From: a virus
Length of the DNA stretch: 22,442 bases
IMG/VR virus record: IMGVR_UViG_3300050821_005531
Location: 1 to 22,442 of that record
Reading direction: 5' to 3' (one strand)
The notes beneath the pieces are model-generated. The model saw only the letters and a list, made by a program, of their open reading frames with translations. It was not told the DNA's origin and did not search any database. Each line of letters begins with the position of its first letter. Position 1 is the stretch's first letter. Both the position numbers and the translations under genes were made by a program. Positions 1,254 to 20,287 of the stretch are shown in pieces.

Positions 1254-1273
1254 CCAATCTTTAGGGTAGCAAC

Positions 1274-10472: not shown

Positions 10473-10856
10473 TTAGTCTTCTTCGGTAACTTTTATAATA
10501 CCAGGAACTTTGGTGTTCCATTTTTGAGACTCTGTTCTATGAGCACAGTTCGTGCATTTTCTATAGTACCACGTGGCGTCTGGCCTATTATATAGGCAGA
10601 TCTCCAGGTAGCCTTCTCCATGGCAATCGTGGCAGGCCCATTCTGATCTGAGCTTCTCTAGGATGCCACGACCCTCGGATTCGTCCTCTAATTGATAACT
10701 TCTCTCTATTATATCTTTTACATGTGCGTAACGATCTAAATCGACCCTCGCAAGCTGTTTCCTAAGAGAGGCGACCTCGCGTTTTAATGCCTTATTTTCG
10801 TACGTTAGCTTCTGTTCTCGACTACGCTCTTTATGACCACGCCGGATTTTTCCCAT
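10473..10856 (-). CDS. Coiled-coil protein with a two-CxxC zinc-ribbon-like domain (127 aa)
   Basis: The first 70 residues are basic and helical, with a coiled-coil stretch about 15-60 (YENKALKREVASLRKQLARV). The C-terminal part carries C75-x2-C78 within CHDCHGEG, which matches the CxxCxGxG zinc motif of DnaJ, and C101-x2-C104 within CTNCAHRTES, which is more like a transcription-factor-type zinc ribbon. The four cysteines can bind one zinc ion. Such proteins are often nucleic-acid- or protein-binding regulators in phages, but no specific role can be shown. AGAGGT precedes the ATG. It is the first gene of the minus-strand island, 74 bases upstream of the transglycosylase gene, and is transcribed away from the homing endonuclease gene. 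Confidence 0.7.
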   Translation of the reverse strand: MGKIRRGHKERSREQKLTYENKALKREVASLRKQLARVDLDRYAHVKDIIERSYQLEDESEGRGILEKLRSEWACHDCHGEGYLEICLYNRPDATWYYRKCTNCAHRTESQKWNTKVPGIIKVTEED

Positions 10857-10868
10857 TATGACCTCTAT

Positions 10869-10874
10869 ATTATA
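10869..10874 (-). promoter_or_regulatory. Candidate -10 box for the minus-strand island
   Basis: Read on the minus strand this is TATAAT, 12 bases before the ATG of the zinc-ribbon gene. I find no convincing -35 element or TG extension, and the expected start site would fall inside the ribosome binding site, so this may be chance in an AT-rich gap. Confidence 0.25.
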
Positions 10875-10898
10875 AAGGTTCCAACTGGCCGCGATATA

Positions 10899-10907
10899 TG
10901 GTATAAT
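10899..10907 (+). promoter_or_regulatory. Extended -10 promoter for the homing endonuclease gene
   Basis: TGGTATAAT is a perfect TG-N-TATAAT extended -10 element. The -35 position (TTCCAA at 10879-10884) is poor, as is usual for this promoter class. Transcription would begin about 10913-10915, only 3-5 bases before the ATG at 10918, giving a nearly leaderless message with no room for a Shine-Dalgarno sequence. Confidence 0.6.
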
Positions 10908-10917
10908 ACACTAAGAT

Positions 10918-11763
10918 ATGATATTGTACGAATTATTTAATAAAATAACTAAAATGGGCTATGTAGGAATTACAACTAGGCCCATTAAGATGCGTTTTGT
11001 CCATGAGCATTTGGCTTCATTAAGAGCCAACAGGCATGGAAACATCTATCTTCAGAACGCTTTTAATAAATATGGAGAATCTGCATTTGAGTGTATTATT
11101 CGCAATACTTATGAAACCATAGACGACTTGAATAAGGCCGAACAAGAAGTATTGATTTTAGAAAAACACAGATTATACAATTTAGCTCCTGGAGGCAATT
11201 CGTACAATCATAGTATAGAAGCAAAAGAAAAAATATCAAAAAGTCAATTAAAGCCTGTTGTAGGCATGAATATAAAAACTGGTGAAATTAGAGAATATCC
11301 GTTTGTTATGGACGTAACTAGAGACGGTTTTGATTATAAAGCTATAGGTGGCGCTTGTAAATTGCGCACAAGCACTAATAGAAATGGCACATTTACAAAT
11401 CTATCTGCAAAGGGGTGGGTTTGGATGTATAAAAAAGATTTCAATATAGAAGAAATGGAAAGAAGAAGAAAATTAGCTTTTAGAGGGAAAATCAGGCTAG
11501 AGAGACCTGTTTTGGGCAAACATCTGGTAACTGGAGAAATTGTAAGTTTTCCTTCCACGGAAAAAGCCAAGGCCGCAATAGGTGTGGTCGGTATTTATCA
11601 AGCATGTCAATATGTTAGAGTGAAAAGTCGCGGTGGGTATGTTTGGGTTTATGCCGATTTGGACAACCCCCAATCTTTACTAGAGGAACGCTACAATGCG
11701 TACATAAGCAATCCTCCAAAGACTGGACCTAAAGCGTGGCTATTCAGAGGCGGCAAAATCTAA
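10918..11763 (+). CDS. GIY-YIG homing endonuclease with NUMOD/IENR1-type DNA-binding repeats
   Basis: Residues 1-97 form a GIY-YIG nuclease domain. The two signature strands are ILYELFNKI and GYVGIT, the conserved Arg is R26 in RFVHEH, an NKYGESAFE motif follows, and the catalytic Glu is probably E75 in KAEQEVL. A NUMOD3-like segment comes next (SIEAKEKISKSQ, about 99-111). Two IENR1/NUMOD1-like repeats follow: PVVGMNIKTGEIREYP... ending GWVWMYKK (113-171) and PVLGKHLVTGEIVSFPS... ending GGYVWVYA (197-247). Such free-standing enzymes cut an allele lacking the gene and spread by repair. The coding sequence is clearly more A-rich than the flanking structural genes, which suggests separate origin. 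It has its own extended -10 promoter and ends 28 bases inside the next structural gene, in another frame. Confidence 0.9.
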   Translation: MILYELFNKITKMGYVGITTRPIKMRFVHEHLASLRANRHGNIYLQNAFNKYGESAFECIIRNTYETIDDLNKAEQEVLILEKHRLYNLAPGGNSYNHSIEAKEKISKSQLKPVVGMNIKTGEIREYPFVMDVTRDGFDYKAIGGACKLRTSTNRNGTFTNLSAKGWVWMYKKDFNIEEMERRRKLAFRGKIRLERPVLGKHLVTGEIVSFPSTEKAKAAIGVVGIYQACQYVRVKSRGGYVWVYADLDNPQSLLEERYNAYISNPPKTGPKAWLFRGGKI

Positions 11764-14726
11764 TTTCCCAAGAGAGAATCGATGTTCCGACAATGCGCGG
11801 CATCGAAAGTGCGGTCTCTAACGATTTTGATCAATCAATTCAAGCATTTATCACTGGAGCTGCTGGTTTTACGCAATCCAACAGCAACCCTGGTATCGGT
11901 TACATTATACGCGGTTTCGAAGTTCTCATGAGTGGCGCTATCGGCGGCGCAGCGTCAAGTCTACAATTGTCCGTGGACCCAGGCGCATTGATGAACGTAA
12001 ACTCTTCCCAGTCGGGAACGGTTTATATGGTTCCGCCTGGCACTCCCAATCAGCAATTAAGTTCCGCTACAAATCCTAGCGTAGTTAACGGCGCATTTGT
12101 TCCAAATTCCTTGAATTACGTCGGCCTAGATTATATTCGTTTTGCCGATTCTGCAACGGATCAACAAGATTATTTATGGAATCCCACGAGCAACACGGAA
12201 ACGACCACGGTAGCTCCTGGCGCTATAATCCTTACATATAATATTTACGTTACTACGACTCCTTGGGCAAGCAATGTAATGCCCATAGCAATCGTTGAAA
12301 CCAACGCGGGCAATCTAGTTACCTCGATTACAGACTGTCGCTGGCTTCTTTTTCGTCTAGCTACTGGTGGAGCAGATCCTAATCCTTTCTATCAGTATCC
12401 TTGGCCTGAGACTCAAGTAGAAAATCCTTCTACGTCTACTTCTAATGGTGTAAATCCATTCTACGGCGGTGACAAAGCTATCTCGACTTTGAAAGACTGG
12501 ATGAACGCCATAATGACGTCCATCGAACAGATTCAAGGCACCAATTACTGGTATTCTGCCATCTCGCAAAGCGGCTCTTTAATCACTTTAAGAGAAGATG
12601 TAGCAAATACAGTAGTCACAGGCAACACCACTATTTCTAACGGTGTATTACCAAATACTACTCCTGTACTTTCTACTACTGGTAACACGCACTCAAATAA
12701 CCAATTAGACGGCCTAGCGTCAACCACAGGCATAGTTCCTGGGCAATTGATCATAGGATCTGGACTGCCAAGCAACACTACGGTGCTCAGCATCTCTGGC
12801 TCTACCGTGACCATGTCTGCAAATGCCGTAACGACACTGACCGGTGTTTCCGTTGCTTTCTATGCTCCTGAACAAGTAACCGTCCCTGGCCAAATCAACT
12901 GGGCGAGCAATCCTCCTGGCGATGGTTTCATTTACTTTAAACTGATAGGTTCTAGACTTTCGTATCAGATTGTAGAAAATCCAACCGGTGCTTCTGTAAC
13001 TCTTGCAGATAACGAAGTTGCTTATTTAAATTTAACCCGCAATGTCAACGTAGCTCCACAACTAATATATACTCCTGGATCTGGAATCACGGTAGTTACC
13101 TCAGTAGGTAGCGTGGTGTGGACGACTAGCTTACAGGCTGGCGATTTCATAAGAGCACAATCAGATTCCGATGCAAATTACTATAAAATTCAAAGTGTAG
13201 ATTCTCCTAGCCAGGTGACTCTTACTGGAATTTATACTCCTGTAGGCGCTGCAACTGGCGTAACTTCAGTTTATGCTTTTGGCGTTTATACCTTACCTGG
13301 TGAAACTGGAACTCAAAGGGATATACAGTTAGCCGATAGATCTGCCGTTCCCTTAAACGGCAACACTGTGTGGCTGTTCTTGCGATCAGATGATGGCGGA
13401 TCTGTAGCTAGGGTTTATATAAAATTCCTTGGAGCAGAACTTCAAGATGGCGATTCGCAAGAAATATCTGGACCCACGCTAAATAATGTATTACAATACA
13501 TAGGCTCTCCTATCGAGAGTGCTGTTGCACCAAACTATACGTCGGCTATTTATCCCGGTGCGTTGCCAGAGATTACTCAAATTACTACTCCTGCTGCGTC
13601 GGCAATGGCCAGCAATGAATATTTTTATCAGTACTCTTCTGGAAATTATCGCAAGTATTACGTGTGGGTAAATAAGGATGGAACCGGCGTAGATCCAATG
13701 CCATTCGCCGATTACATAGGAATTCCATGGATAGTAAGCACTGGTCAGACGGCAACACAGACTGCTACGGCCTTAGTAAATGCTCTTAATGGAATAATTC
13801 CCAATGATTTCTTAGCCAATTCTTCTTCTGCAGTTGTAACGGTTAAGAATAATTCTGGCGGTATAACGAATCCATCTACTAATTTTAACGTAAGTGGTTT
13901 ATCTATATCTGTTACTCAAGTAGGAACAGGTATAGGGAACGCTGTAATAAATGATGGCGACAACTTAACATTAGCTATTAAAAAATTAGATGATGAGTTC
14001 GGCAATTTCATTAATTCATTGGATAGTCCTACCTATGATGAGACTATAAATATAGTAACATCCGGTGGACAAACACCGCCATATTTTGGTAGCGGTGCGC
14101 CGAATTATACTCCAGTTACTTTAAATGGCCCCATATCTTCAACTACAGATGTTACTTTGCCTAGCAATACTAGACTCGGTAATATTCCACAGGCATACAC
14201 GGTTGGAAAGGGCACTTTAGAAGTATATCTAAATGGCCAGTTCCAAGAACTAGGGATAGACTGGCTTGAAGTAGGCGCGTTTGATACTGCAAGCACACAG
14301 ATCGAAACTTTACGAACTTACGTAGTAGGCGATTATATACAATTCCGTATCGGCACCGGAGGTGGCGGTGGCGGCGGCGGAGGAGTAGGTCCGCCTGGAC
14401 CGACAGGTCCTCAAGGAGCACCAGGAGCAGATGCTGCCGGTGGACCGATCAATATCAATACGTATACTGGACTTTATACGGTACTTTTGACAAATTGTTT
14501 CCTTAAAGCAAATTGTGCTAGTGGGCCCGTAACATTTACATTGCCTGCTGCCTCCTCGGCTGCGGGCAGAATTTTCTATTTCAATAAGATAGACTCTACC
14601 ACAAACGCTATGATAATTAATCCGAATGGTTCTGATCTTATCGATGGAGCCAATACTTTAACTACTACTGTCCAATATACGGCTTATTCTTTGATATCAG
14701 ATGGTAGCACATGGAGTATTTTCTAA
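11736..14726 (+). CDS. Fibre/baseplate-appendage structural protein with collagen-like segment (996 aa)
   Basis: A large virion appendage protein. The N-terminus after the GTG (AIQRRQNLISQERIDVP, then IESAVSNDFD) reads as a folded attachment domain, and the frame is closed just upstream by TAA (11730-11732), so GTG 11736 is the best start; the only ribosome site candidate is a weak GGA eight bases before. About residues 1-260 look like a conserved domain. Beta-rich repeat sequence follows. A domain near 828-872 carries TLEVYLNGQFQELGIDW and VVGDYIQFRI. Nine consecutive glycines (875-883) and five Gly-X-Y triplets (886-900) follow, then a C-terminal beta module (about 908-996) with VTFTLPAAS and ending STWSIF. 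Trimeric collagen-like linkers are common in phage fibres. The first 28 bases lie inside the homing endonuclease gene. The stop abuts the next ATG. Confidence 0.8.
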   Translation: MAIQRRQNLISQERIDVPTMRGIESAVSNDFDQSIQAFITGAAGFTQSNSNPGIGYIIRGFEVLMSGAIGGAASSLQLSVDPGALMNVNSSQSGTVYMVPPGTPNQQLSSATNPSVVNGAFVPNSLNYVGLDYIRFADSATDQQDYLWNPTSNTETTTVAPGAIILTYNIYVTTTPWASNVMPIAIVETNAGNLVTSITDCRWLLFRLATGGADPNPFYQYPWPETQVENPSTSTSNGVNPFYGGDKAISTLKDWMNAIMTSIEQIQGTNYWYSAISQSGSLITLREDVANTVVTGNTTISNGVLPNTTPVLSTTGNTHSNNQLDGLASTTGIVPGQLIIGSGLPSNTTVLSISGSTVTMSANAVTTLTGVSVAFYAPEQVTVPGQINWASNPPGDGFIYFKLIGSRLSYQIVENPTGASVTLADNEVAYLNLTRNVNVAPQLIYTPGSGITVVTSVGSVVWTTSLQAGDFIRAQSDSDANYYKIQSVDSPSQVTLTGIYTPVGAATGVTSVYAFGVYTLPGETGTQRDIQLADRSAVPLNGNTVWLFLRSDDGGSVARVYIKFLGAELQDGDSQEISGPTLNNVLQYIGSPIESAVAPNYTSAIYPGALPEITQITTPAASAMASNEYFYQYSSGNYRKYYVWVNKDGTGVDPMPFADYIGIPWIVSTGQTATQTATALVNALNGIIPNDFLANSSSAVVTVKNNSGGITNPSTNFNVSGLSISVTQVGTGIGNAVINDGDNLTLAIKKLDDEFGNFINSLDSPTYDETINIVTSGGQTPPYFGSGAPNYTPVTLNGPISSTTDVTLPSNTRLGNIPQAYTVGKGTLEVYLNGQFQELGIDWLEVGAFDTASTQIETLRTYVVGDYIQFRIGTGGGGGGGGGVGPPGPTGPQGAPGADAAGGPININTYTGLYTVLLTNCFLKANCASGPVTFTLPAASSAAGRIFYFNKIDSTTNAMIINPNGSDLIDGANTLTTTVQYTAYSLISDGSTWSIF
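14358..14429 (+). repeat. Poly-glycine run followed by collagen-like GXY repeats
   Basis: Nine Gly codons of mixed type (14358-14384) are followed by Val-Gly and then GPP, GPT, GPQ, GAP and GAD triplets. Five triplets are too few for a stable collagen helix alone, so this is probably a short trimeric hinge between the shaft and the C-terminal head domain. Confidence 0.8.
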
Positions 14727-15155: not shown

Positions 15156-17135
15156 ATGGCTCAGATAGTCAATAAATTTCTCGCACAAGTGCCTGCTACT
15201 ACATTAAAGGGCAACAGCACTGGCAGTACAGCAAACGTAAGCGACCTTAGTGTGGCTACTGTACAGACAATGCTTAGTATACCAACCAATTCCTCGCCAC
15301 TATCGCTGGCATCTGGTGGTACGGGAATTTCAGCCGGTTCAGCAAACGCTGCTTATAATGCTTTATCTCCCATGACAACTATTGGTGATTTAGAATACGA
15401 GTCAGCTACGGGTATCGCTAGTAGGCTGCCAATTGGATCTACGGGTCAGATTTTAACCGTTGTTGGGGGAATTCCCGCATGGGCAGCCGCTCCAGCTACT
15501 GGCGCAAATACCGCGTTAAGCAATTTAACTGCCACTGCAGTTAATGCAGATATCGTTCCAGCAGCAAACACAACGACCAATCTAGGTGCTCTAACCTTTC
15601 AATGGCTAAACGGCTGGATATTGAGAACACAGCTTCATTCAACTCCGGATCAAGGAGTTTTTGGATTACTGACGGGCTTAACTGGAACCCCCGTAACTGG
15701 CATAGGAATACTCTCTACTGGTGACAACACCGGAAATCCTAATCCAGTTTCTGTCGCTTCAGCCAATAATTCAGGATCATTCAACACAAGCTCAGTACAA
15801 TTAGTTACTGGAAGTGCTACCGGTGCTAGCAATAGCAGCGGTAATATCATCCTAACAACTGGCTCCTCATCTGGCGGTACTGCCGGTGTTTTTAAATTCT
15901 TGAAAACTGGCGTCGCCTCAGTGTCTGGCCAAGTTTGGACGGCATCTGCCACTGATGGCACTGGTTACTGGGCAACCGCTGCAGTTTCTGGAATCACACA
16001 ATTAACTGGCGACGTAACAGCAGGTCCTGGATCTGGATCGCAAGTAGCTACTTTAGCTACCGTAAATTCAAACACTGGCTCTTTTGGTTCTTCTACTAGC
16101 ATTCCATCTTTTACTGTGAATGGCAAAGGCCTTATTACTGCCGCCAGCGGCAATGCTGTAGTTGCCCCTGCTGGAACTTTGTCCGGCACAACCTTAAATT
16201 CTACTGTAGTTACTTCAAGTTTGACCTCTTTAGGAACTCAAGCCCAAGCCTTAAATATGGGCTCATTCCAAATCAACAATTTGGCGAATGGCGTTGCAGG
16301 TTCTGATGCGGCAACCTATGGTCAATTACAGGCCGTCCTAGCTGGCCTTTCTTGGAAAAACGCGGTTCTAGTAGCTACTACTGCCAACATTACGCTATCA
16401 GGCGAACAAACTATCGATGGTTTTTTAACGAGTTCGAGCAGGGTATTGGTTAAAAATCAAACTCTTACTCAGAATAATGGCATCTACGTTTCAGGATCTG
16501 GAGCATGGACGCGCGCTACAGATATGAATACCTGGGCTGAAGTTCCAGGAACTGTTGTCGTAGCACAAGAAGGAACTGTAAATGCTGATTTAGCATTTAT
16601 TTGCACTTCTGCTCCTGGCGGAACGTTAGGTACCACGCCTATTACTTTCGGTCCTTTCGGAACATACTTAGCCGATGGCACAACCCTTACCCTAACTGGA
16701 AATGTTTTCTCGATCACGTCTGGCGGGGTTGGAACTACCCAGTTAGCATCTGCTTCAGTAACCGCAGCTAAATTAGCAACTGTAACTGATGGTGTAACGA
16801 CTAATCAGTCCGGTTCTGGTAGTACGATTCAGTCTTTGAAGCCGGTTCGTTATGCGTATACATTGACCTCTACCGATGTAACCAATCAATTCGTCGATTT
16901 AGATATTTCTAATGGTTTTCCTTCAAACGATCCTGCATATGGAACTGTTGCCAATAGCGTTCATCTGGATATCATAGGTGGCGGAGCGCAACAAGAAGCT
17001 GTTGATTACACGATAAATTTAACTGGCGGCTCCAGCGGATCAACTAGACTGTCCTTTATCGGCGGCTTAGCAACTGGCGGAGCATCTGCCCTAGTTTCTG
17101 GTGACGTTCTAGCAGTTTCTTACAGCTATCTGTAA
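15156..17135 (+). CDS. Tail fibre protein (659 aa)
   Basis: A modular tail fibre. The N-terminus (KFLAQVPATTLKGNSTGSTA) is shared with the next gene and probably attaches the fibre to the particle. One copy of the MTT-GD-xxY repeat lies at residues 73-111 (MTTIGDLEYES to GGIPAW). Central beta sequence follows. At about 398-510 is a module widely seen in phage fibres, with WKNAVLVATTANITL, then SRVLVKNQTLTQNNGIYV and WTRATDMNTWAEVPG. The C-terminal domain (about 562-659) carries VDYTINLTG and GDVLAVSY and is shared with the preceding small protein. No catalytic depolymerase motif is visible. AAAGGA nine bases before the ATG serves as ribosome site; only 12 bases separate it from the preceding gene. 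Confidence 0.85.
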   Translation: MAQIVNKFLAQVPATTLKGNSTGSTANVSDLSVATVQTMLSIPTNSSPLSLASGGTGISAGSANAAYNALSPMTTIGDLEYESATGIASRLPIGSTGQILTVVGGIPAWAAAPATGANTALSNLTATAVNADIVPAANTTTNLGALTFQWLNGWILRTQLHSTPDQGVFGLLTGLTGTPVTGIGILSTGDNTGNPNPVSVASANNSGSFNTSSVQLVTGSATGASNSSGNIILTTGSSSGGTAGVFKFLKTGVASVSGQVWTASATDGTGYWATAAVSGITQLTGDVTAGPGSGSQVATLATVNSNTGSFGSSTSIPSFTVNGKGLITAASGNAVVAPAGTLSGTTLNSTVVTSSLTSLGTQAQALNMGSFQINNLANGVAGSDAATYGQLQAVLAGLSWKNAVLVATTANITLSGEQTIDGFLTSSSRVLVKNQTLTQNNGIYVSGSGAWTRATDMNTWAEVPGTVVVAQEGTVNADLAFICTSAPGGTLGTTPITFGPFGTYLADGTTLTLTGNVFSITSGGVGTTQLASASVTAAKLATVTDGVTTNQSGSGSTIQSLKPVRYAYTLTSTDVTNQFVDLDISNGFPSNDPAYGTVANSVHLDIIGGGAQQEAVDYTINLTGGSSGSTRLSFIGGLATGGASALVSGDVLAVSYSYL

Positions 17136-17194: not shown

Positions 17195-20100
17195 ATGTCG
17201 CAAGTAAAAAATAAATTCCTGGCTCAGATGGCCACCCTTACTCTCAAGGGCAATAATACTGGCTCTACAGCGAATCCTTCCGATTTGACCGTAGCTCAGG
17301 TTGTTTCTATGCTTAACTCTGCCAATCAGCAATTGAGCAATCTTTCTTCTACGGCAGTAAATGCAGCGATATCCCCAGGTGTAACGAATAGCATAAATCT
17401 TGGGGATGCCAACCACACTTGGGCCGCTGGCTATGTGGTTCAATTAAAAGATAATAGCAATGTTTTATCACTTGACACATTTGCTAGAAAAATATATGAC
17501 ACGGCTGGGAATTCCTCCTTTGATGGAACGAATAGAGTTTTAACAGCTTTTATCAGCAGTGCTTCAACCAATTTATTGAGCTGGTCGACGTCGTTACAAT
17601 TGGGCTCTCCTTCTGGTTTTAACCAGATGACCATTACCAATTCCGGCCCTCAGGTTCAGAATTCACTGCTCTTCTTTGGTGGTACTTCTACCAACAATGT
17701 CACCGTATCTGCTAACACTTCCACTGCGGCATATTCTCTTACTTTGCCTGCTGCACAAGGAACTGCAAATCAGGTCTTAGCACAATCTGGCACCGTAGGT
17801 GCGTTAACTTGGGCAACGGCCACAGCAACGCCTACCGCTTCATCGATTGCAGAATGGGACGCCAATGTAAACCTAACTGCTAATAATTTTATAAATGAAT
17901 ACACTACTACTGCTTCTTCAGTTGGTACATACACTTTAACTGCCGCATCTACGTATTTCCAGTACATAACTGGTGGCACGCTTCTGACCATCACTCTTCC
18001 AGTTGCTTCTACCATGACTGAAGGTCAATCCTTCTTTTTCGTAAGCAATTCTGGTTCTAACGTAACGATTCAAACTTCTGGCTCAAATGCCCTTGTAATC
18101 TTGGGTGGCGGACTCAGTGAATGGGGTTTGGTTACTTGCATACTGAATTCAGGAACTACCACTGCAAGCTGGAATGTTATCAGAGGCGGTCAGAGCACTC
18201 TACCAGTAGGACTTGGAGGAACAGGACAAACAGGCGCTTTAACTCAATATGGATTAGTTTATGCTCCCACGACGACCTCCATGGGATCTACGGCACAAGG
18301 TGCTTTAGGAACCGTGTTGACTGGACAAGGACCTAGCGTTCCTACGTGGCAGCCACTGATAACCGGCAGTAAAAACTATCTATCTGCTATAATTACCTCT
18401 CAAAGTTCTACTCCAAATCCTGGTAATGGAAACTTTGAGCTTGGAAATACCTCGGGCACTTGGAGTTTATTCAATACTACCGTTTCTGGAAGCGCTCCAA
18501 CTGGGACTATCACGCTTACCGCTGCCTCTTTGACTTCTTTCACTAACATCAGCTCTGGTCAAATAGGTGGACAGTATTCTTTACAAGTGGGTACTTCTTC
18601 TGGTACGGCTTGGGGAAGTGGTCAAGGCTTCATAAGCACCGCCTTCAACATTGATGCAGAAGATCAGGCAAAGATGATGACCATAAAGATGTACTACAAA
18701 GTTACATCTGGTGCAGCAAACCTAAATTTCTCTGGTACCACAGCAAATAACTTGGCTGTTGCGATTTACGATGTTACTAATAGCGCATGGATTCAACCAC
18801 AAGGATCGTTCAACTTTGTTCAAAACTCTGGAGTTGGATATGTAACTGGAACCTTCCAGACTACTTCAAATTCTACCCAATATCAAATTGCCGTTCTTAA
18901 CGTAAATGGAACTGCTGCAGGAAGTACTGGCGTAACGACTGTCGTATTTGATGATGTCTTTGTGGGTCCTCAGACTGCTCCGGCTGGACCCGCTATGACT
19001 GATTGGGTTTCATATACGCCAACAGGATCGTGGGTTTCTAATACGACTTATACTGGCAAATGGCGTAGGGATGGCGACACCATGTTTGGTGAAGTATTAA
19101 TTTCTCTAACAGGAGCGCCTACTTCCGCCACTCTGACCGTAAATATACCTTCTGGCTTTACGATTGATACCACTAAAATGGTAGGCGGAGTAGCTCCAAC
19201 TGTCGGCGTTTGGTGGGGATCGGTCGCTGGAGTTGCCCGACCAGGCGGTATTACTAGATATAGTTCTACAACAGCTTTAGATTTAATTACAGGAGCAGGG
19301 ACAGCTCCATTTACGGCTTCTCAGGTTACCCAAGCATATCCTACCACTTTTGCTAATGGTGACTATATTCAATTAACTTTCAGTGCACCAATAGTCGGCT
19401 GGTCTTCAAACTCCAGTATGTCTTCGGATACTGATACTCGTGTTGTGGCAGCTAGATACACGGGAGCAACTGCGTCGTTAACTTCTAGTTATTCTAATGT
19501 AACTTTTACTACTCAGTCTTCCGATACGCATGGCGCTTATTCTGGGGCAACGTATACGATACCTGTTTCTGGTTATTACGATATTGGGGGTCAAATATAC
19601 GTATCTGGAACTGCTTCATTAAACGGAACTACCATAGTCGGATTATTGCAAAATGGGTCTACTATAGCTGAAAATGATTTTACTTATGCTGGAGCCGTAA
19701 CTGGATCTGTAGGGATTCCATTTAGTTTTGGATCTATTTTATGTAAAGCTGGCGACACCATAGTTATTCAGGCAAAGAGTAGCATAACTCTTCCAGTAAT
19801 CACCGCAAGTTCTACTGAGAATTTCTTACAAGTAGCACGCAGATCTGGTCCCGCAGTTGTTGCTGCTACTGAATCGGTGAACATGAGATATCACTCGGCT
19901 TCAGGAACGCCAGGAACCCTTGTTTCTCCAAACGCTATTACGTTTACGACCAAAGATTTTGATAGCCATAATGCCTACTCAGGAAGTACTTATACGGTTC
20001 CAGTGAGTGGAAAATACCAAGTAAACGCTTCGACCTATCAAAGTGCTACCACGACCGCAGCAAATGAGCAGGTAAGTACATTCATTTACCATAGCGGCTC

Positions 20101-20287
20101 TCCGGTATCACAAAGTGTTACTCAATTTTCTGGAGCGACTTCTCTCCAGGGTTGTCTTATTTCTGATCTAGTATCATGTCTTGCTGGCGATACTATTCAA
20201 ATATTTGCTGGTAATGCTGGTACCACTCCAAATCTCCAAGTGAGCACGGTCATCAACTTCATTTCGATTGCTAGAATAGGAAATTAA
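17195..20287 (+). CDS. Large tail fibre/receptor-binding protein with tandem C1q-like domains (1030 aa)
   Basis: Modules in order: an N-terminal attachment segment (KNKFLAQMATLTLKGNNTGS) that matches the previous fibre; an NTSTAAYSLTLPAAQG module near 172-210; a beta module near 235-329 with LTITLPVASTMTEGQSFFF; a GLGGTGQTGALTQYGLVYA repeat; a carbohydrate-binding-module-like beta sandwich near 405-600 (GNFELGNTSGTW, IDAEDQAKMMTIKMYYKV, ending TTVVFDDVFVGP); a segment with YTPTGSWVSNTTYTG and GKWRRDGDTMFGEV near 607-735; and two C1q/TNF-like domains at 749-885 and 893-1030, each with AYSG-xTYT-PVSG-Y/K-Y and ending in a hydrophobic strand. Such domains trimerise and bind surface ligands, so this is a strong receptor-binding candidate. 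AGAGG six bases before the ATG; 59 bases from the preceding gene. Confidence 0.85.
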   Translation: MSQVKNKFLAQMATLTLKGNNTGSTANPSDLTVAQVVSMLNSANQQLSNLSSTAVNAAISPGVTNSINLGDANHTWAAGYVVQLKDNSNVLSLDTFARKIYDTAGNSSFDGTNRVLTAFISSASTNLLSWSTSLQLGSPSGFNQMTITNSGPQVQNSLLFFGGTSTNNVTVSANTSTAAYSLTLPAAQGTANQVLAQSGTVGALTWATATATPTASSIAEWDANVNLTANNFINEYTTTASSVGTYTLTAASTYFQYITGGTLLTITLPVASTMTEGQSFFFVSNSGSNVTIQTSGSNALVILGGGLSEWGLVTCILNSGTTTASWNVIRGGQSTLPVGLGGTGQTGALTQYGLVYAPTTTSMGSTAQGALGTVLTGQGPSVPTWQPLITGSKNYLSAIITSQSSTPNPGNGNFELGNTSGTWSLFNTTVSGSAPTGTITLTAASLTSFTNISSGQIGGQYSLQVGTSSGTAWGSGQGFISTAFNIDAEDQAKMMTIKMYYKVTSGAANLNFSGTTANNLAVAIYDVTNSAWIQPQGSFNFVQNSGVGYVTGTFQTTSNSTQYQIAVLNVNGTAAGSTGVTTVVFDDVFVGPQTAPAGPAMTDWVSYTPTGSWVSNTTYTGKWRRDGDTMFGEVLISLTGAPTSATLTVNIPSGFTIDTTKMVGGVAPTVGVWWGSVAGVARPGGITRYSSTTALDLITGAGTAPFTASQVTQAYPTTFANGDYIQLTFSAPIVGWSSNSSMSSDTDTRVVAARYTGATASLTSSYSNVTFTTQSSDTHGAYSGATYTIPVSGYYDIGGQIYVSGTASLNGTTIVGLLQNGSTIAENDFTYAGAVTGSVGIPFSFGSILCKAGDTIVIQAKSSITLPVITASSTENFLQVARRSGPAVVAATESVNMRYHSASGTPGTLVSPNAITFTTKDFDSHNAYSGSTYTVPVSGKYQVNASTYQSATTTAANEQVSTFIYHSGSPVSQSVTQFSGATSLQGCLISDLVSCLAGDTIQIFAGNAGTTPNLQVSTVINFISIARIGN
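19439..20284 (+). repeat. Tandem duplication of a C1q-like domain
   Basis: Two consecutive domains of about 140 residues align along their length. HGAYSGATYTIPVSGYYDIG in the first matches HNAYSGSTYTVPVSGKYQVN in the second. Both continue with KAGDTIVIQA or LAGDTIQIFA and end with FLQVAR or FISIAR. Divergence is high, so the duplication is old. Confidence 0.75.

Follow-up and report, generated by a model that had tools for sequence, protein, structure and literature searches.

Layout of the nuclease/fibre junction

The virus record IMGVR_UViG_3300050821_005531, analyzed here over its whole 22,442 bases (the window; all positions are those of this stretch), carries a gene for a GIY-YIG homing-endonuclease-like protein whose 3' end runs into the 5' end of a tail-fibre-like structural gene (Table 1). 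The DNA encoding the C-terminal tail of the nuclease probably doubles as the leader of the fibre gene, with an embedded late-promoter-like element. The two open reading frames (ORFs), 10918-11763 and 11736-14726, overlap by exactly 28 nucleotides (nt), as a previous reading made from the sequence alone (the sequence-only reading) had stated, and the nuclease stop codon falls 25 nt into the fibre gene. The same reading named a zinc-ribbon gene as the neighbor of the nuclease gene; this gene is present, and the wording is corrected in that it is divergent, on the minus strand, so that the nuclease gene sits in a divergent intergenic region. A zinc-ribbon-like gene is also found left of the fibre gene in L001 to L003 and in most close relatives (L numbers designate the loci of relatives).

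Table 1. Features of the junction and related elements in the window
Feature	Position	Strand	Description
Divergent zinc-ribbon-like gene	10473..10856	-	ORF with CxxC pairs; left neighbor of the junction
Rest of the zinc-ribbon/fibre intergenic region, left part	10857..10917		GATATATGGTATAATACACTAAGAT at its end, ahead of the nuclease ATG
GIY-YIG homing-endonuclease-like gene with two NUMOD-like repeats	10918..11763	+	ATG..TAA, 281 amino acids
Nuclease C-terminal tail, putatively also fibre leader	11656..11763	+	Residues 247-281 and stop
CAATCTTTA, late-promoter-like motif within nuclease codons	11671..11679	+	65 nt before the fibre GTG
Weak Shine-Dalgarno-like TGGA	11724..11727	+	AGGA in L145 and L082
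Nuclease/fibre gene overlap	11736..11763	+	28 nt; GTG at 11736; nuclease stop TAA at 11761-11763
Tail-fibre-like structural gene with collagen-like C-terminal repeats	11736..14726	+	GTG..TAA, 996 amino acids; relatives in IMG/VR and Myxococcus phage Mx1
Second exact CAATCTTTA	1255..1263	+	Precedes by 29 nt the TTG (1284) that starts a large gene

The nuclease matches phrog_314 (E value, 1.7e-19), and its nearest solved structure is the catalytic domain of I-TevI (E value, 0.0045; PDB entries 1mk0 and 1ln0, with E values of 0.0045 and 0.013). The Pfam GIY-YIG model aligns with residues 2-84 at an E value of 6e-4 and 20.5 bits, under the cut-off of 22.6, which the nucleases of L145 and L136 pass. 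The NUMOD-like family phrog_20162 matches in two stretches, the match ending at residue 247. The protein shows the GIY-YIG catalytic domain of a free-standing homing endonuclease and is encoded in a frame of its own between genes, with a patchy distribution among relatives: it is absent from L070, L074, and L077 and present in L145, L088, L148, L136, and L149. The C-terminal half of the nuclease as the sole query against viral contigs gives no match.

Start codon and ribosome-binding site of the fibre gene

Four loci with fibre relatives are found with the window protein alone, together with Mx1 (OR576727), and 68 loci are found with an alignment of six N-termini. Removal of duplicates leaves 59 loci; L083 and L084, duplicates of L082 at the locus, are dropped from the deduplicated counts. 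A search of genome contigs with the fibre alignment yields a single relative, the nuclease-free locus L147, and the junction survey thus comprises 62 loci, namely, these 59 with the window, L145, and L147. The 129-kb contig bearing L147 is binned as a metagenome-assembled genome of the Saprospiraceae, a possible hint at the host or a case of misbinning.

The codon aligned with GTG 11736 is the start codon in all 68 relatives (67 ATG and 1 GTG, in L112). GTG 11736 is therefore taken as the real fibre start, inherited in place, and it lies within nuclease coding sequence, as the sequence-only reading had it. Fibre residues 5, 8, 12, 14, and 16 are invariant in the six-sequence alignment. A start at ATG 11793, which that reading had named as evidence against itself, would drop conserved N-terminal residues and is rejected.

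The weak ribosome site predicted from the sequence alone is likewise found. The best duplex with the anti-Shine-Dalgarno sequence over the 20 nt upstream of the GTG reaches -3.0 kcal/mol (median of the loci, -5.35), which ranks 62nd of 62 loci and is the weakest Shine-Dalgarno match of all. The RNA fold around the fibre start is less stable than that of shuffled sequences (z score, +1.38), and control by a hairpin is not claimed. The sequence-only reading had proposed that fibre expression is coupled to read-through from the nuclease gene; taken as translational coupling, this would mean that ribosomes ending the nuclease step back 25 nt from the stop codon and reinitiate at the GTG. The 28-nt overlap, the GTG start, and the lack of a good initiation site of its own argue for such coupling. 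The distance argues against it: more than 8 codons separate the GTG from the stop, slightly beyond the range of ∼7 codons around a stop within which ribosomes reinitiate according to passages of PMC2988022, the source of the threshold used here.

A late-promoter-like motif in the nuclease tail

The hexamer AATCTT stands in the sense orientation within 120 nt upstream of the fibre gene in 50 of the 59 deduplicated loci, compared to 7 of 59 in antisense and a mean of 3.35 at random places. The longer form CAATCTT occurs 26 times in the 150 kb of Mx1, on both strands. Within 80 nt upstream of coding sequences, it is found in sense before 12 of 86 plus-strand starts, versus none of 145 minus-strand starts; most annotated structural genes of Mx1 are on the plus strand. 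By this positioning, the AATCTT/CAATCTT family appears to be a late-promoter-like element. The CAATCTT copies of Mx1 come down to ∼12 nt before the ATG, which suggests very short late leaders.

The exact sequence CAATCTTTA has only two copies in the window, at 1255 and 11671. The first precedes a large gene whose place matches that of the baseplate J-like gene of Mx1; the TTG at 1284 is the start of its longest ORF. The second provides the codons of P-Q-S-L (residues 251 to 254) of the nuclease, just past the end of the NUMOD-like match, and is a candidate for an embedded promoter of the kind known from T4 segG, with the motif at 11671-11679 recurring in the tails of two other nucleases. One of these belongs to L145, where an intact relative of the window nuclease occupies the same junction, with a 10-nt overlap at the fibre ATG; the other, in L088, is a frame-broken copy with its ATG at 2303 of that locus. 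The motif P(Q/E)SLL...GPK(A/S)W is common to the three tails, and those of the window and L145 have PQSLLE and GPK(A/S)W in common at the protein level. At the DNA level, the L145 tail CCCCCAATCTTTATTAGAGG and the window tail CCCCCAATCTTTACTAGAGG are identical at 19 of 20 positions, and the 7-codon window at the tail motif, with 19 of 21 positions identical (mean, 11.0), is the joint best-conserved window of the gene. A DNA pattern anchored on the motif retrieves from viral contigs only those of L082 to L084, the L088 contig, and L145, and a second pattern retrieves the same set without L088; the alignment of the tails (A2) as the query again returns only the contig of L088.

In each of the window, L145, and L082, the motif precedes the fibre start by 62 to 65 nt and is the sole AATCTT within 120 nt of that start. 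At random places, AATCTTTA would occur in ∼0.2 of 59 such stretches. This expectation argues against a third reading, in which the tail motif is a coincidence of protein coding without promoter function and the fibre gene is transcribed from further upstream.

Replacement of the ordinary fibre leader

Close nuclease-free relatives retain the divergent zinc-ribbon gene; in the ∼150 nt between it and the fibre gene, TATATGATA (in many of them), AATCTT[T/A]A, and the Shine-Dalgarno sequence lead in this order to the ATG. The stretch left of the nuclease gene in the window, 10857..10917, is similar to the TATATGATA element of these leaders and contains no intact AATCTT. The leader is ordinary and does not resemble the nuclease tail in three nuclease-free sisters: L070 (sister of the window), L077 (of L088), and L074 (of L145). 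A 60-row tree of the fibre groups the window with L070 (support values of 100/97) and L088 with L077 (100/100); leaders of the tail type are therefore spread over separate lineages, and in two of these the sister has no such leader. The fibres of L145 and L074 are 92% identical over the stretch compared, and the blastn match between the two loci resumes only ∼33 nt into the fibre gene, the leader of L145 differing from that of L074. As in the segG type of arrangement, the former leader is displaced, both in L145 relative to L074 and in the window relative to L070; the comparison with relatives lacking the nuclease thus agrees with the leader replacement proposed in the sequence-only reading.

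A leader similar to the nuclease tail is also found without any nuclease. L082 to L084 have the same leader allele, with no difference in the 110 nt compared, an ATG start, and no nuclease ORF upstream. Up to the motif, the leader of L082 is an ordinary one, with TATATGATA at -52 as in L071 and L081, and the 70 nt before the motif resemble L074 (z score, 7.2) and not the three nucleases (z scores of at most 0.9). From the motif to ATGG it is tail-like, with z scores of 7.9 to L145 and 8.2 to L088 (0 of 500 shuffles); among the L145 tail, the L088 tail, and this leader, the DNA after the motif is alike with z scores of 7.5 to 8.2 (0/500 shuffles). Had the tail motif recombined with a motif further upstream, such a structure would be left over, and the L082 leader is apparently the scar of a lost nuclease. 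The opposite direction, in which a nuclease captured an ancestral leader at a later time, would also account for it. On either reading, a leader like the nuclease tail serves the fibre gene alone in L082 to L084, where the fibre must be made without a nuclease because none lies upstream. The sequence-only reading had named nuclease-free relatives with the same GTG and upstream bases as evidence against itself; the upstream bases of L082 are indeed similar, but its start is ATG.

Other nucleases at the fibre junction

A nuclease gene adjoins the fibre start in 10 of the 62 loci. L145 was obtained with the tail pattern and is a biased addition; leaving out both it and the window gives 8 of 59. 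Five of the genes are of the GIY-YIG type (the window, L145, the broken copy of L088, L136, and a remnant in L096), and five are of the HNH type (L073, L076, L078, L121, and, on the opposite strand, L071). With this recurrence, a cleavage site at the 5' end of the fibre gene is plausible. The window nuclease may itself be active and home at the fibre junction. A later nuclease search added L149 and L148, the contig of L148 ending inside the nuclease gene. HNH- or endonuclease VII-like genes of several kinds occur at or near the junction on both strands (L071, L073, L076, L078, L088, L113, and L121).

These insertions differ in where the motif lies. The AATCTTTA copies of L136 and L149 precede the nuclease gene, with none in its tail; in both loci, the Shine-Dalgarno sequence is contained in the last nuclease codons, and the nuclease stop lies 3 nt before the fibre ATG or shares one base with it. 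The fibre of these two loci is probably made by read-through from the nuclease gene because the motif copies near the fibre lie upstream of it. The HNH-type genes of L076 and L121 have the leader motif at or just after their stop codon, and in L073 no motif stands out clearly near the start.

Leader capture is clear in one case only, the HNH gene of L078, where the ORF reads through an ordinary leader motif: its final codons span CAATCTTAATGAGAGTA, similar to the leader of the nuclease-free L070. The same could hold for the window, in that the tail would be the ancestral leader of the fibre gene itself, kept and read by the nuclease frame as has been proposed for T4 segG; in addition to L078, the resemblance of CAACCCCCAATCTTTAC in the window to the leaders of the near relatives L071 and L072 favors this origin. 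Against it, the L145 tail is unlike the leader of its sister L074, and the nuclease tail aligns both to the internal linker between the L136 repeats and to the C-terminal end of L149 (LLEERYN, NLEEKYN, and DLLKKYK), for which reason a native nuclease sequence is favored over a captured leader. The DNA before the nuclease gene points the same way. L148 has an intact CAATCTTATAAGT, a CAATCTT copy, directly before the nuclease ATG; L145 retains 16 of 20 bases of this stretch, with AATCTA; L088 has AATTTATTGAGT; and the window has nothing clear there. An ancestral motif thus seems to have stood upstream of the nuclease gene and to have decayed where the tail bears a copy. Capture of the ancestral leader is considered unlikely; the function of the tail would be the same, and this estimate is not exclusive of the preferred reading, in which the tail moved with the nuclease.

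A further candidate, the tail motif as a repeat of the DNA before the nuclease gene, applies to L088 only (11 of 11 bases; 3 of 1,000 shuffles) and is rejected for the window and L145. Short second copies of the fibre start (GTGGCTGTT and GTGGCA) are found just before the start in use, at the end of the nuclease frame, in L149 (2780-2810) and L088 (2960-3005), and they look as if they were repair scars.

GIY-YIG/NUMOD-like genes also lie just before a small tail gene of the MAQSVV.. type, in L002 (4214-4846), in L148 (1-477), and in L075, ∼2300 to 2940 nt before the fibre start. These three loci mark a possible second hot spot for nucleases; in L002, the stop codon of the nuclease-like gene touches the likely start of the small tail gene. 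Downstream of the fibre gene in the window, 15156-17135 and 17195-20287 are long genes whose N-termini are related to each other (NKFLAQ..TLKGN.TGSTAN.SDL); they are probably duplicates of an adhesin or fibre gene.

Proposed function of the nuclease tail as a fibre leader

A mechanism consistent with these observations begins with the entry of a free-standing GIY-YIG gene into the divergent zinc-ribbon/fibre region, just upstream of the fibre start, where its arrival would have displaced the ordinary fibre leader. The DNA for the last ∼35 nuclease residues would then serve twice, as the C-terminus of the nuclease and as a fibre leader that holds CAATCTTTA (11671) and a weak ribosome site and runs onto the fibre start codon. 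Late transcripts from the embedded element would bear the fibre start without the nuclease start, so the supply of fibre need not depend on nuclease expression. Taken as a whole, this explanation, a nuclease tail that is a fibre leader with an embedded late-promoter-like element, is judged fairly probable.

Several observations weigh against this explanation. The tail-motif window shares its rank as best conserved with two other 7-codon windows, which begin at residues 120 and 121. AATCTTTA fits the codons of the conserved Q/E-S-L, so its conservation may partly reflect protein constraint. A simple sigma-70 scan gives no plus-strand hit at the embedded motif, which is a putative promoter by its position. 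This negative scan and the conservation of Q/E-S-L at the protein level in all three tails favor the reading of the motif as a coding coincidence, which nevertheless is quite improbable given the random expectation and the shared spacing described above. The DNA after the motif in the window is weakly like that of the other tails (z scores of 2.7 to 3.0, 7 to 12 of 500 shuffles; 2.7 and 11/500 for the L082 leader) and resembles the ordinary leader of L072 at least as much (z score, 3.4; 3 of 200), the last value also favoring the capture of an ancestral leader. L082 is left unplaced by the fibre tree, within the same 21-row group. Finally, the weakest Shine-Dalgarno match of the survey and the GTG start leave room for translational coupling in the window.

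Coupling of the fibre to read-through from the nuclease, as first stated, is not required, with the motif at 11671-11679 standing 65 nt before the GTG. The likely read-through in L136 and L149 speaks for it; the motif within the nuclease tails of the window, L145, and L088 and the similar leader of L082 to L084 without any nuclease speak against it, and as an account of the window it is rather improbable. A wider possibility, advanced tentatively and with some doubt, is that the nuclease acts as a vehicle that rewrites the regulation of structural genes: its tail would bring a late promoter and a ribosome site, swapped in with each homing event, and the new leader would stay after loss of the nuclease, as in L082. 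If so, selfish nucleases would be one of the forces behind the turnover of fibre-gene promoters in this family of phages.

Comparison with known systems

According to passages of PMC2988022, several free-standing endonucleases of phage T4 have displaced transcription starts and bear promoters of downstream genes in their coding regions, segG/gene 32 being the case named first. The kind of arrangement described here is therefore already known. No report of the nuclease/fibre junction itself was found in the literature searched, a coverage that mostly excludes subscription journals.

As in T4 segG (ORF 32.1) and gene 32, a free-standing GIY-YIG gene lies by an essential gene, relatives without the endonuclease exist, and the endonuclease frame overlaps the regulatory sequence of the downstream gene (passages of PMC2988022 and PMC535899); in T4, promoters of the downstream gene lie inside the endonuclease coding sequence, and the motif in the window is a candidate for such a promoter. 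The relevant part of PMC535899 suggests that segG may be a chimera whose frame was extended into the leader of the recipient. In contrast to segG, the window belongs to an unrelated phage family and the gene concerned is a structural one, the promoter role being a putative one. The frame also runs through the ribosome site and the start codon, 28 nt into the gene, and a leader of the tail type occurs in a phage that has no nuclease. T4 segA, segE, mobB, and mobC, which in the same account (PMC2988022, in part) have embedded promoters for downstream genes, are alike in this arrangement. I-TevI (1mk0 and 1ln0) shares the GIY-YIG catalytic domain; it is intron encoded, and the C-terminal half of the window nuclease differs from it in consisting of NUMOD-like repeats. 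Mx1 has a fibre relative (39% over residues 1-278) with AATCTT 28 nt before its start and a related small tail gene as a neighbor; unlike the window, its junction has neither a nuclease nor a zinc-ribbon gene. The portion of the Mx1 genome announcement consulted (PMC10720576) reports no promoter motif.

The junction would thus represent a second, unrelated case of the segG arrangement. It comes with a series of alleles, from ordinary leaders through read-through insertions and insertions with the motif in the tail to a nuclease-free leader resembling a leftover tail, and this series makes testable how a selfish gene survives beside an essential gene and whether regulatory DNA is left behind by it.

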